Assembly: GCA_019112625.1 (NCBI GenBank)
Contig: DXIW01000052.1
Span: 1-60,149 of the forward strand
Direction: 5' to 3'
Length of the DNA: 60,149 nt
Source: Candidatus Acutalibacter stercorigallinarum
Lineage (GTDB): Bacteria > Bacillota > Clostridia > Oscillospirales > Acutalibacteraceae
Shown here: one piece after another, positions 17,389 to 32,695 of the stretch
Layout: each line of letters starts with the position of its first letter
Position numbering within the stretch: position 1 is the first letter of the stretch
The notes under the pieces: generated by a model
Told to the model about the DNA's origin: nothing
Databases searched by the model: none
What the model saw: only the letters and a program-made list of their open reading frames with translations
Made by a program: the position numbers and the translations under genes

Positions 17389-17470
17389 CCCCCTGTTTCC
17401 CTTTCCCGGAAAGCTGAAAAAATCCCGGGCCTTTTTCTTCTTTTTGTGAGTGTTTTCGCCCCGTTTCCCG

Positions 17471-17476
17471 TATAAT
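17471..17476 (+). promoter_or_regulatory. -10 element upstream of the sigma-serpin operon
   Basis: TATAAT at 17471-17476, 31 nt before the sigma gene start. No good -35 at 16-18 bp was found, and no GAAC/CGTC-type ECF promoter, so autoregulation is not visible at this spot. Confidence 0.5.
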
Positions 17477-17506: not shown

Positions 17507-18046
17507 ATGGACCAGGGGGCCGAGTACTACCGGCGGTACCTCGCCGGGGATGAGACAGGCTTCGACCAGTTGATGGAGCTGTACCGGGAGAACCTCATCT
17601 TCTTTCTGCTGCGGTTTCTGCCCTCGGTGGAGGACGCGGAGGACGCGGCGGAGGACGCCTTTGTGGAGCTGCTGCTCCACCGGTGGCGGGAGGATGGGGG
17701 CGCCAGCCTGAAGACCTATCTGTTCACCATTGGGAAGCGGAAGGCCCTGAGCCACCTGCACCGCCGGGGGAGGCGGAAGGAACAGCCCCTCTCCCCCCTG
17801 CTGCAGGCGGAGGCCCTGAGCCTGGAGGACCGGGTGTGCCGGGACGAGGAGCGCCGGGAACTGGTGGAGGCCATCCGCCGGCTGCCGGAGCAGTACCAGG
17901 AGGCCCTGTACCTGCTGTACTTCGAGGGGCTCAGCCTGGACGAGGCGGCCAGGGTACTGGGCAAAAACAAGAAGCAGGTGGAGAATCTCTCCTACCGCGG
18001 GAAACAGGCCCTGAAGCAGGACCTGGGAAAGGAGGCGCGCAGATGA
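17507..18046 (+). CDS. ECF-type RNA polymerase sigma factor coupled to the serpin gene
   Basis: A 179-residue sigma-70 family protein of the ECF type. Region 2 is visible around residues 10-80 (FDQLMELYRENLIFFLLRFL, then DAEDAAEDAFVELLLHRW). Region 4 with its helix-turn-helix lies around 125-170 (LPEQYQEALYLLYFEGLS, then DEAARVLGKNKKQVENLSYR). Regions 1.2 and 3 are absent, as expected for ECF. AAAGGAGGG precedes the ATG at 17507. Its TGA overlaps the ATG of the serpin gene (ATGA), so the two proteins are made together, the usual layout for a sigma factor and its membrane partner. Confidence 0.9.
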   Translation: MDQGAEYYRRYLAGDETGFDQLMELYRENLIFFLLRFLPSVEDAEDAAEDAFVELLLHRWREDGGASLKTYLFTIGKRKALSHLHRRGRRKEQPLSPLLQAEALSLEDRVCRDEERRELVEAIRRLPEQYQEALYLLYFEGLSLDEAARVLGKNKKQVENLSYRGKQALKQDLGKEARR

Positions 18047-19506
18047 AAACTCCAGAGGAGTTCAAGGCGGCGGTGTACCAGAAACGGGACGCCGCCCAAA
18101 AACGCCGGAAGCGGACGGCCCTGGGCCTGTGCCTGGCCGCCGTGGTGGTGCTGGGCGGGGGCTTCTTCGCCCTGCGGGGGCTGGGGCTCTCCGGCGTCAC
18201 CGGCTACGAGGAGGGCGGCCCCACGCTGCAGGTGCTGGCCCCGCCTGCCCTCCAGGACCTGCACGACATGGACGCACTTTACAGCACCACCGAGGACGGG
18301 GCCTTTACTATCGACCAGGAGGCCCGGGAGGAGTTCAACCGCCTGGGCAGGGAAGCCAAGGTGGAGGAGGCTTTTCCCCAGGCGGTGAGCGGCTTTGCCC
18401 AAAAGGCCGCGCCCCTGCTCCTGGGCGAGGAGGAGAACGGCTGCTTCTCCCCCCTGAGTTTGTACTACGCCCTGGCCCTGGCGGGGTCGGGGTCCCAGGG
18501 GAAGACCCAGGAGGAGTTTCTGGAGGTCCTCTGCGCCCCCGACCTGGACTGGCTGGGGGAACAGGCGGGCCGCTGCTACCGGCAGCTCTACCAGGACAAC
18601 GACCGGGGCACCCTGACCATGGCCAACTCCCTGTGGCTGCAGAAGGTGTACCCCTTCGCCCAGAGCTTTCTGGACACCGCCGGGGAGGACTACTTCGCCG
18701 CCCTGTTCTCCGGGGACTTCCGGGACCCCCAGCTGGGGAGCGAGGTGAGCCGGTGGATCAGCGACAACACCCAGGGGCTGCTGGCCCCGGAATTGCAGTT
18801 TGACACAAGCGCCCGCCTGGCGGTGGTAAACGCCCTGTACTTCCACAGCAAGTGGACGGATGAGTTTGACCCCCAACTGACCAGCCCGGAGGAGTTTACC
18901 CGGGCCGACGGCTCCACCGTTACCGCGGACTTCATGCACGCCGAGGGGCAGCGGAACAGCGTATGGATCGGGGAAAACTACACCCTGGCGGCCAAGGGGC
19001 TTTCCAGCCAGGCGGTCGCCTTCTTCGTCCTGCCGGAGGAGGGCGCCACCCCCCAGGAGCTGCTGGAGGACCCGGACTTCTGGGAGGAGCTGGAGCAAGT
19101 CATGACTGGCGGCGCCTACGCCCAGGTAAACTGGTCGGTGCCGAAATTTACGGTGGACAGCCAGTTTGACCTGGGGGACGTGCTGCCCCAGCTGGGCCTC
19201 ACCACCGCCGGCAACCCCTGGGCCGCGGACTTCTCCGGCATTACGGAGGTGGAGCCGCTGACCCTTTCCGGGGGCAGCCACGGGGTGCACTTCGCCATTG
19301 ACGAGGAGGGCATCGAGGCCGCGGCCTACACGGCGACCTCCATGAGCGGCTCCAGCGGGCCCCCGCCCCTGGAGATCGACATGGTGCTGGACCGGCCCTT
19401 CCTCTACGGGGTGACGGCCCTTACCTCCACCGAGGAGATGGAGTACAGCAGGATGGACAGCACCCTGCTGTTCCTGGGGGTGTGCGGGGACCCCACAGCG
19501 TCGTAA
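18043..19506 (+). CDS. Membrane-anchored serpin, candidate anti-sigma/sensor partner
   Basis: A 487-residue protein: short basic cytoplasmic tail (1-24), one membrane helix (~25-46), linker, then a complete extracellular serpin domain (~105-482). Serpin marks are FSPLSLYYALAL (135-146), VNALYFHSKW (262-271), the reactive-loop hinge EEGIEAAAYTAT (421-432) and LDRPFLYG (449-456). The small-residue hinge predicts a true inhibitor. Counting from the hinge (Gly423 as P15) puts the P1-P1' bond near Ser437-Ser438. That is a small P1 of the kind elastase-like proteases accept, but exact P1 placement is uncertain. In the slot after an ECF sigma gene one expects an anti-sigma factor. The tail plus single helix fits that role, with the serpin as the sensor. 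Confidence 0.9.
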   Translation: MKTPEEFKAAVYQKRDAAQKRRKRTALGLCLAAVVVLGGGFFALRGLGLSGVTGYEEGGPTLQVLAPPALQDLHDMDALYSTTEDGAFTIDQEAREEFNRLGREAKVEEAFPQAVSGFAQKAAPLLLGEEENGCFSPLSLYYALALAGSGSQGKTQEEFLEVLCAPDLDWLGEQAGRCYRQLYQDNDRGTLTMANSLWLQKVYPFAQSFLDTAGEDYFAALFSGDFRDPQLGSEVSRWISDNTQGLLAPELQFDTSARLAVVNALYFHSKWTDEFDPQLTSPEEFTRADGSTVTADFMHAEGQRNSVWIGENYTLAAKGLSSQAVAFFVLPEEGATPQELLEDPDFWEELEQVMTGGAYAQVNWSVPKFTVDSQFDLGDVLPQLGLTTAGNPWAADFSGITEVEPLTLSGGSHGVHFAIDEEGIEAAAYTATSMSGSSGPPPLEIDMVLDRPFLYGVTALTSTEEMEYSRMDSTLLFLGVCGDPTAS

Positions 19507-19521
19507 CCAGACAGGAGACAG

Positions 19522-19553
19522 GGGGCGGGCCCAGGTGGCCCGCCCCTTTTTTT
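19522..19553 (+). terminator. Intrinsic terminator of the sigma-serpin operon
   Basis: Perfect 10-bp stem GGGGCGGGCC (19522-19531 with 19537-19546), loop CAGGT, then seven Ts. Confidence 0.92.
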
Positions 19554-30662: not shown

Positions 30663-31220
30663 ATGGACGACCGGGAGATCGTGAAGCTGTTCTGGGCGCG
30701 GTCGCCCCAGGCGGTGGACGCCCTGGACGAGGCCTACGGCCCGGACCTGCGCCGCCTGGCCCAGCGGCTGCTGGACGACCGGCAGGACGCCGAGGAGTGT
30801 GTGAACGACACCTACCTGAGCCTGTGGCAGGGCATCCCCCCGGCGAAGCCGGACCCCCTGCTGCCCTACGCCCTGCGGGTCACCCGAAATTTGTGCTTAA
30901 AGCGCAAACGGTGGAACACCGCGGGGAAGCGCTCCTCCCCCTTCGACGCGGCCTTTGAGGAGCTGGAGGACTGCCTGGGGGACTCGGCCGGGCCCGAGGC
31001 CAGCTTCGACGAGGGGGAGCTGAAGGCCGCCCTGAACAGCTTTGTGCGGGGGCTCTCCCACCGGGACAGGGTGCTGTTTTTAGGGCGGTACTGGTACGGC
31101 TGCTCCCTGAAGGAGCTGGGGGAGCGGCTGTCCATCACCGAAAACAACGGGGCCGTGCGGCTCTCCCGGCTGCGGGAGAAGCTGAAGGCCCACCTGCGGA
31201 AGAAAGGAGTATTGGAATGA
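30663..31220 (+). CDS. ECF-type RNA polymerase sigma factor (second)
   Basis: A 185-residue sigma factor. Region 2 includes LAQRLLDDRQDAEECVNDTYLSLW (~32-55), the typical DAEECVNDTYL motif of this clostridial ECF group. Region 4 is around 125-172 (FVRGLSHRDRVLFLGRYWYG, then SLKELGERLSITENNGAVRL). AAGGAGGGA precedes the ATG. It overlaps the next gene by ATGA. Confidence 0.9.
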   Translation: MDDREIVKLFWARSPQAVDALDEAYGPDLRRLAQRLLDDRQDAEECVNDTYLSLWQGIPPAKPDPLLPYALRVTRNLCLKRKRWNTAGKRSSPFDAAFEELEDCLGDSAGPEASFDEGELKAALNSFVRGLSHRDRVLFLGRYWYGCSLKELGERLSITENNGAVRLSRLREKLKAHLRKKGVLE

Positions 31221-32695
31221 AGGCCGAGGATCTGCTGCAAGCCATGAACGACATCGACACCAAATATGTGGCCGAGGCCCAGCCCTGGACCGCCCCGGTG
31301 AAGAAGCTGCACCACCCGGTGTGGGCCGCGGCTGCCGCCGTGATGCTGTGCCTGGGGCTGGGGGCCGGGGCCGCGGTACTGCTCCACTCCCCGGCGGTAC
31401 AGCCCGGCGCCGAGGGCGGGGTGACCACCGAGCTCTCCTCCAGCCAGGAGGCCGGGGGGGCCCGCGTTACCCTGGAATTCGAGCATCTGGCGGCCGGCGA
31501 GGAGAAGATCGCCCCCTTTGCCGCCACCTATGGTCCCGCCTATGCCGAGGCCAGCGCCGCAGGGGAGGACGGGGGGATCTTTGGTGGGGGCTATTCGGAG
31601 ATATTCCTCACCCGGGAACAGCTGGAGGCCATCTGGCAGGGGGACGCCCTGCCCTGGGATGGGATCGGCCTGGAGAACGTCACCCTGGACGCCACCGCCG
31701 CCTTCCAGGACGGGGAGCTGATCCAGGTGTATATCGAGGCTCCGGACCTCTTTACCATCCAGCTGGTGTCCCGGGCCTATGCGGAAGCCAACGCGGCGGA
31801 TTGGGCCCGGCAGGTGGAGGAGAGCTTCGCCAGCGCCAACAACCAGGTAGACGGCACCCCGGTGGTGGCCGGCTGGTTCCAAGAAACCGCCCTGTATGGG
31901 GATGCCAAGCTCGATGAGACGGTGGCAAAGGCCCTCTTCTCTGTGGACAGCGCCATCGTCACTGTCACCGCCGCTTCCAGTGAGATGGCGTTCCCCACCC
32001 AGGAGGAAGCCCAGGCCTTTGTGGAGCAGGTGGTGGGGCAGAGCTTGAACACAGGCGTTGTGCTGAGCGGGCTTTCCGCGCCGCAGGACGACACGGATAC
32101 TGCGCTGGAGTTTGCCCAGTGGGACGAGGCGGAATATGAGACCTTGTTCCGGGAGTGGGCCGACAGCTACAGGGCCGATGTGATCGAGCCCCAGGTGACA
32201 AAGCCCGACGGCAGTTACCGCACCCAGGACTTGCCCCTGGAGCAGGTAAAAGCCCTGTGGGGCGGGGAGTTCCCCTGGGTCAACGGACACGACAGTTTCC
32301 AAAATCCCCGGGCCTACACCTACCATACGGAAGAGGGGGAGCCCGTGTACGCGGTCATTGAGATCGGCGGCGGGGACGTGGGCTTTACCGTCACCATCCT
32401 TCCCCAGTATCCCCAAGGGGAGTGGGGCGAAGCCCTCACCGCCGTGCTGGCACAGGCTAACGAGGAGGTAAACGGCGTGCCGGTGCTCACCAGCGGCACC
32501 CAGCTTTCCACTGCCGCCTACACAAAGTATGAGGCGCTGTTCCAGCCCCAAAGCAGCGATAGCGTCATCCATGTGGAAGCCCACGCAGGGGACACCCAGT
32601 CCGACTTTACCCCCGAGGAAGCCCAGACCTTCGTGGAGCAGGTGGTGGAGGGGACGCTTACCGGCGGCATCGACCTGGCCGTGCTCCAGCCTTGA
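31217..32695 (+). CDS. Single-pass membrane protein with duplicated ectodomain, candidate anti-sigma partner
   Basis: A 492-residue protein: cytoplasmic N-terminus (1-33, AEDLLQAMNDIDTKYVAEA, a start seen in many clostridial ECF partners), one helix (~34-57), then a large acidic ectodomain. The ectodomain is a duplication: LTREQLEAIWQGDALPW (~131) recurs as LPLEQVKALWGGEFPW (~339), and AFVEQVVGQSLNTG recurs as TFVEQVVEGTLTGG. I do not recognise a catalytic motif. The architecture and coupled translation match the serpin gene at 18043, so a sensing anti-sigma role is inferred. Confidence 0.72.
   Translation: MKAEDLLQAMNDIDTKYVAEAQPWTAPVKKLHHPVWAAAAAVMLCLGLGAGAAVLLHSPAVQPGAEGGVTTELSSSQEAGGARVTLEFEHLAAGEEKIAPFAATYGPAYAEASAAGEDGGIFGGGYSEIFLTREQLEAIWQGDALPWDGIGLENVTLDATAAFQDGELIQVYIEAPDLFTIQLVSRAYAEANAADWARQVEESFASANNQVDGTPVVAGWFQETALYGDAKLDETVAKALFSVDSAIVTVTAASSEMAFPTQEEAQAFVEQVVGQSLNTGVVLSGLSAPQDDTDTALEFAQWDEAEYETLFREWADSYRADVIEPQVTKPDGSYRTQDLPLEQVKALWGGEFPWVNGHDSFQNPRAYTYHTEEGEPVYAVIEIGGGDVGFTVTILPQYPQGEWGEALTAVLAQANEEVNGVPVLTSGTQLSTAAYTKYEALFQPQSSDSVIHVEAHAGDTQSDFTPEEAQTFVEQVVEGTLTGGIDLAVLQP

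Follow-up and report, generated by a model that had tools for sequence, protein, structure and literature searches.

The 60,149-bp stretch of Candidatus Acutalibacter stercorigallinarum DNA analysed here, referred to as the window, includes a two-gene operon in which a gene coding for an ECF sigma factor overlaps a gene coding for a membrane-anchored serpin. The product of the second gene is probably (we would put it at about 0.6) a single-pass anti-sigma factor whose serpin domain senses and traps an extracellular protease, following the logic of RsiV. This reading is built on the architecture of the gene pair, the homology of the cytoplasmic tail, the recurrence of the pairing, a conserved hinge, and a promoter element restricted to genomes harboring the pair, all of them read from sequence. 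The features of the locus are as follows.

17446..17476, + strand: promoter element GTGAGTGTTTT-N14-TATAAT, conserved in four genomes and proposed as the target of the window ECF sigma factor (autoregulation)
17507..18046, + strand: ECF sigma factor gene, 179 amino acids, with sigma region 2 and region 4 domains
18043..18046, + strand: ATGA overlap of the sigma stop and the serpin start, read from the sequence
18043..19506, + strand: gene for the membrane-anchored serpin, 487 amino acids, proposed anti-sigma factor
18043..18117, + strand: basic cytoplasmic tail, residues 1-25, an anti-sigma-type module by its tail profile score
18118..18174, + strand: predicted transmembrane helix, about residues 26-44 by hydropathy (helix 4-45 in the model)
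18178..18357, + strand: juxtamembrane linker, about residues 46-105, from alignment A1
18394..19416, + strand: serpin domain (PF00079 and predicted fold)
19297..19365, + strand: hinge and reactive centre loop, residues 419-441, with P15 at Gly423 and P1 at Ser437 by count
19520..19553, + strand: intrinsic terminator closing the two-gene operon, a 12-pair stem followed by a T run

The pairing had been described in an earlier note on this DNA and proved to be real, as did its details: the ATGA overlap, the basic tail, the single helix and the complete serpin domain. The sigma protein scored above the cut-off with the Pfam region 2 (r2) and r4_2 models and with TIGR02937, and combines regions 2 and 4 in a small protein, as is characteristic of ECF sigma factors. 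The second gene overlaps the sigma gene and, judging from charge and hydropathy, codes for a single-pass protein with its N terminus inside, the arrangement expected of a membrane anti-sigma factor. The same gap of −4 was found between the ECF gene and the serpin gene in 55 of 78 ECF-adjacent serpins, and the terminator has a fold z-score of −3.8. A cleaved signal peptide in place of the membrane anchor is not favored because 25 residues precede the helix (the median is 34 and the range 23-62 over 78 TM-serpins), whereas many free serpins have short lipoprotein signals; cleavage after the helix could nonetheless occur. The window serpin has no AxA signal-peptidase-like site in that position, and across the TM-serpins such a site is only weakly above chance (27 of 78, with 18.2 ± 3.2 in shuffled sequences, 6 of 1000 of which reached as many), so that AxA is not convincing as a site-1 motif. 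Linker residue P67 is invariant across the 18 ECF-coupled serpins of alignment A1.

The anti-sigma role proposed in the earlier note gains its main sequence support from the tail. A profile of the window's tail lineage, type C, was trained on 42 proteins with non-serpin ectodomains encoded directly after relatives of the window sigma gene, 15 of which have a serpin gene further down. The window serpin tail matched this profile with 37.9 bits (E = 9.4e-11) and the tails of its three orthologs with 28.6, 42.1 and 47.2 bits, while 200 shuffled tails did not exceed 4.6 bits and the N termini of 210 other serpins did not exceed 7.4 bits. Six of 855 decoy ORFs reached 10 bits or more, and these are by their sequence ECF partners, mostly copies of the training proteins. 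The cytoplasmic part is therefore related by homology to the tails of other ECF-overlapping membrane proteins, whose assignment as anti-sigma factors is by gene position only, and appears to be a swappable anti-sigma-type module that in the window bears a serpin. Class I (ZAS) anti-sigma domains carry a zinc-binding motif of the H-x3-C-x2-C type; a zinc-finger anti-sigma domain of this class was ruled out, as the 25-residue tail has no Cys or His.

A second tail type, type A, with a consensus near MKxExLxDAIGxxDxxxIExA, is found on 61 of 77 ECF-adjacent TM-serpins, that is, on most of the other coupled serpins. A type-A profile made mostly of serpin tails found 80 matching places in 42 of 60 relatives (E ≤ 0.001). 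An ECF gene lies immediately upstream in all 30 of the type-A loci that were fetched, 23 of which are not rows of the query; 12 encode serpins, 2 have a serpin further down and 16 carry other ectodomains. A type-A profile trained on 18 non-serpin partners only reached 10 bits or more with 51 of 78 serpin tails, none of 78 shuffled tails and 1 of 245 other serpins, the lone match (L110) being cut by a contig end. The occurrence of type-A tails on non-serpin ECF partners indicates that these tails, too, are general anti-sigma-type modules with an exchangeable ectodomain. At a threshold of 21 bits, tails were recognized on 72 of 77 ECF-adjacent serpins as compared with 1 of 281 others, again contig-cut; the profiles used in this count were partly built from the same tails, and 41 of 46 held-out tails reached 21 bits. 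Sigma identity and tail similarity, compared over serpin and non-serpin partners, showed a weak correlation (rho 0.21; 34 of 2000 permutations as high) because the non-serpin set is mostly of one tail type, and profiles leaving the serpins out were used instead. The window has a second ECF gene (30663-31220, + strand) with a 4-nt overlap to a membrane protein gene (31217-32695, + strand), whose 492-amino acid product has a type-A tail and a non-serpin ectodomain that matches no Pfam family.

The pairing recurs in relatives, as a search suggested in the earlier note was meant to reveal. The statement there that serpins are rare in bacteria does not hold in this group, in which they were detected in 131 of the 398 family-sample genomes and 165 of the 391 class-sample genomes. 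For the family sample, the regions around nearly all serpin hits were retrieved, leaving out the four weakest places. Among the resulting 180 serpin ORF records, some of them repeated through overlapping loci and 5 of them weak, 43 lie directly after an ECF gene and 19 more have an ECF gene upstream at a distance of up to about 1.5 kb. In 18 of these 19 records the two are separated by a gene that begins at the ECF stop, and one such middle gene itself encodes a TM-serpin. The largest classes of sigma-unlinked serpins in this sample are lipoproteins and other exported forms. The loci from the class sample, 30 top-scoring and 40 hand-chosen in favor of long open frames, included one ECF-adjacent TM-serpin (L322) and three arrangements of ECF gene, middle gene and serpin. 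A scan of named genomes with the window protein alone confirmed no relative, and with alignment A1 it matched at least 564; the best 80 of these at least 564 loci included 21 with an ECF-adjacent TM-serpin, one of them in Faecalispora jeddahensis (L342), and 2 with ECF gene, middle gene and serpin. The earlier note had held that a serpin found mostly without the sigma gene would speak against its proposal. Such is the distribution of serpins at large (43 plus 19 of 180 records are sigma-linked), and the opposite is seen for the tail-bearing serpins, which at 21 bits or more are nearly all ECF-adjacent.

The relation between the two genes was also examined from the sigma side. When the 30 places with the highest scores for relatives of the window sigma factor in the family sample were inspected, the one in the window among them, a same-strand serpin gene was found no more than 3.5 kb downstream at 10 of them. 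Far fewer than one would be expected by our estimate, because there is on average well under one serpin per 2-Mb genome. A FastTree phylogeny of 348 distinct serpin domains comprised 77 ECF-adjacent TM-serpins, 21 with a middle gene and 250 free serpins; the sampling is uneven, and these tallies are therefore counts and not frequencies. On this tree, no fewer than 33 changes of state (gains or losses) are needed to explain the coupling, and no fewer than 6 changes of tail type within the coupled serpins. Type-A and free serpins surround the clade of the window serpin and its three orthologs (support 97), whereas the window sigma factor and tail are of type C, which points to a domain swap across lineages.

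Other arrangements were seen in the course of this survey. Three-gene loci (L083, L044, L040, L051, L057, L005, L306, L327 and L328) consist of an ECF gene, a gene for a membrane protein with an anti-sigma-type tail and a serpin gene; the serpin mostly has a lipoprotein signal, and it may be an input or an output of the system. Three serpins (L125, L119 and L168) have a short basic N terminus of the YRKKSP type and a membrane helix, with no ECF gene in the stretch fetched, which is cut short by the contig end upstream of L125 and L119. Long N-terminal extensions, some of them SLH-like to the eye, are present in many of the class serpins chosen by hand (L301, L302, L307, L309, L316 and others).

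The reactive loop has the features expected of an inhibitor. The predicted structure of the window protein is that of a serpin, although loop residues 432-441 fall below pLDDT 50 and the prediction does not discriminate the native from the relaxed state. The hinge of inhibitory serpins, P17-P9, has the consensus ExGTEAAAA according to the available text of PMC8233489. The window hinge, E-E-G-I-E-A-A-A-Y, conforms to it apart from P14 (I) and P9 (Y). The inhibitory-type hinge recognized in the earlier note is a general property of these proteins: Gly at P15 and small residues at P12-P10 are present in 56 of 57 ECF-adjacent serpins and in 189 of 210 others, the latter being what was left of 220 rows after 10 with loops shorter than 25 letters were dropped. 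The small P1 that it had predicted is also common: counting assigns G, S or A to P1 in 45 of 56 ECF-adjacent serpins as compared with 76 of 189 others, and R in none and K in one of the 56; as the loops vary in length, the placement of P1 is uncertain. Elastase is just one of many possible targets for the window serpin. The single exception to the conserved hinge is an ortholog of the window serpin (L207, G407:C128), which has a degenerate, shorter reactive loop. The genome in which it was found, G407, also has a second ECF-serpin pair, of type A (L199). That one of the four orthologs is without an inhibitory hinge counts against the protease-trap reading, as does P14, at which 42 of 56 ECF-adjacent serpins have V or C and 120 of 189 others have T, and as does the lack of an AxA site in the window protein.

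A search for a shared promoter motif, also proposed in the earlier note, led to the element GTGAGTGTTTT-N14-TATAAT, which precedes the orthologous ECF gene in four genomes, its spacing unchanged. The pattern was derived from these four sites, which therefore match it by construction. In the window it is the sole match at up to 3 mismatches, with 0.02 expected. With up to 2 mismatches allowed, the four pair-bearing genomes have 17 sites (1, 8, 5 and 3, respectively), 4 of them seeds; the 13 further sites all lie within three of these genomes, the window genome having only the autoregulatory site, itself a seed. The element was absent at this threshold from 13 genomes of the same genus without the pair, a control set drawn from 25 other genomes of the genus, and a reversed control pattern gave one hit over all 17 genomes. 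Allowing 3 mismatches added background only, with 1-8 hits in the four pair genomes, 0-2 in the other 13, and up to 10 in one genome for the reversed pattern. The consensus of the sites is gTgAGTGtTtTt-N10-ttGTATaAt. Five of the 17 are sites of the sigma operon, one genome contributing two. The remaining 12 include one cut off by a contig end; each of the other 11 precedes an open frame that, taking the longest frame listed, begins 20-92 bases away (about 73 for a better start at L479). All 11 target products have a strong N-terminal hydrophobic stretch. They include lipoprotein-like proteins, an Acyl_transf_3 protein, an SLH protein and small membrane proteins. Two of these products, encoded in different genomes, share 52% identity, and Pfam names only 2 of 10 regulon proteins scanned. 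The pattern of sites is what an autoregulated ECF sigma factor with a surface regulon would look like.

The closest known counterpart is SigV-RsiV of Bacillus subtilis, in which, as far as the available text goes, an ECF gene is likewise followed by a gene for a single-pass protein with a short cytoplasmic tail; the RsiV-like topology claimed in the earlier note thus has support at this level. RsiV is described in the accessible parts of the literature as receptor and inhibitor of lysozyme in one, encoded in a sigV-rsiV-oatA operon (PMC5014341). Its transmembrane segment spans residues 37-59, signal peptidase cuts it after lysozyme binding, and the operon is transcribed by its own sigma factor (PMC4183432, PMC5014341). 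The likeness considered here is one of layout. Unlike RsiV, with its DUF4163/DUF3298, the window protein has a serpin ectodomain; a Pfam search at E up to 1 returned Serpin above the cut-off and two unrelated weak matches. Capture by the window serpin would be covalent and irreversible, again unlike RsiV, and the window protein is without an AxA site. An exchangeable outer sensor on a membrane anti-sigma factor is also known from SigI-RsgI of cellulolytic clostridia, where the text consulted describes a family of such factors whose extracellular sensor modules can be swapped. SigI itself is not known to be an ECF sigma factor. According to the same partial sources, RsgI sensors are carbohydrate-binding or hydrolase modules or PA14, and serpins of those organisms figure as cellulosomal protease inhibitors only; no Pfam or NCBIfam match to an RsgI-type N-terminal anti-sigma domain was found in the window serpin. 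The siropins of Eubacterium siraeum and other bacterial serpins share the serpin domain and inhibitory-type hinge, and the siropins are described as inhibitors, with no sigma factor, operon or transmembrane anchor in the portion of the siropin paper at hand. A class of membrane-anchored prokaryotic serpins is recognized in a serpin phylogeny paper, the available part of which does not mention sigma factors. No serpin linked to an anti-sigma factor was found in the partially accessible literature searched, which excluded subscription papers and the 2021 ECF reclassification. The receptor logic is known already from RsiV and RsgI; the use of a serpin as the sensor appears to be new.

In the mechanism that we propose, the short basic tail would bind the ECF sigma factor and hold it at the membrane at rest, with the reactive loop exposed outside as bait. 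An extracellular serine-type protease would cut the loop and become trapped, and the insertion of the cut loop into sheet A, a large shift, may pull on or expose the juxtamembrane segment. In tengpin, according to the text available, an N-terminal tail stabilises the native state (PMC8233489), and a similar N-terminal coupling could be a route by which loop insertion reaches the membrane. A site-1 protease, followed by a site-2 protease acting within the membrane and by cytoplasmic proteases, would then remove the tail, and capture by the serpin would render this release irreversible. The freed sigma factor would transcribe its own operon, replacing the used-up suicide inhibitor, and in relatives also genes for exported and membrane proteins.

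That the two genes are neighbors by chance can be rejected: frequent as serpins are in the class (165 of 391 genomes), the conserved overlap, the tail homology and the recurrence at clade level contradict the absence of a functional link. It is quite unlikely that the membrane serpin is an effector that shields surface proteins from proteases and is merely co-regulated, with the tail as its anchor. Related serpins are in many cases lipoproteins with no linked sigma gene, and some operons place the serpin behind an ECF gene and a separate membrane protein (18 middle genes), a position resembling that of an output; the tail, however, is homologous to those of non-serpin ECF partners and is nearly confined to ECF-adjacent serpins (72 of 77 against 1 of 281).

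If the protein is an anti-sigma factor, its input could differ from the one proposed. Some non-inhibitory serpins bind hormones, and the serpin domain might sense a small ligand, a partner protein or a different kind of stress; the loop of one ortholog is degenerate, and 10 of 10 scanned ectodomains of other ECF partners or middle genes with similar tails have no Pfam family above the cut-off, so that the tail does not imply protease sensing. We regard such an input as unlikely, since P15 Gly with small P12-P10 in 56 of 57 proteins is hard to explain without loop insertion. The loop might instead be a sacrificial cleavage sensor that releases the sigma factor when cut by any protease, with no trapping, and many proteases would cut at the small P1 residues (G, S or A) counted in 45 of 56 proteins. 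This is very improbable, as a mere cleavage site needs neither a conserved hinge nor a serpin core.

A wider form of the protease-trap reading, to which we would give roughly even odds, is that serpins have been grafted repeatedly on different anti-sigma tails and act as covalent one-shot transmembrane receptors, in which capture and the stressed-to-relaxed transition free an ECF sigma factor that replaces the receptor and adjusts the surface. If the protease-trap reading is correct, bacterial serpins, the roles of which are largely unknown, would gain a regulatory function, and protease trapping would join the few known direct inputs of ECF systems. Many Clostridia, a class assigned from the named relatives, many of them from the animal gut, would then watch their own surface for proteases of host or microbial origin. 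The analysis also reveals a family of interchangeable anti-sigma tails, the other scanned ectodomains of which have no known function.
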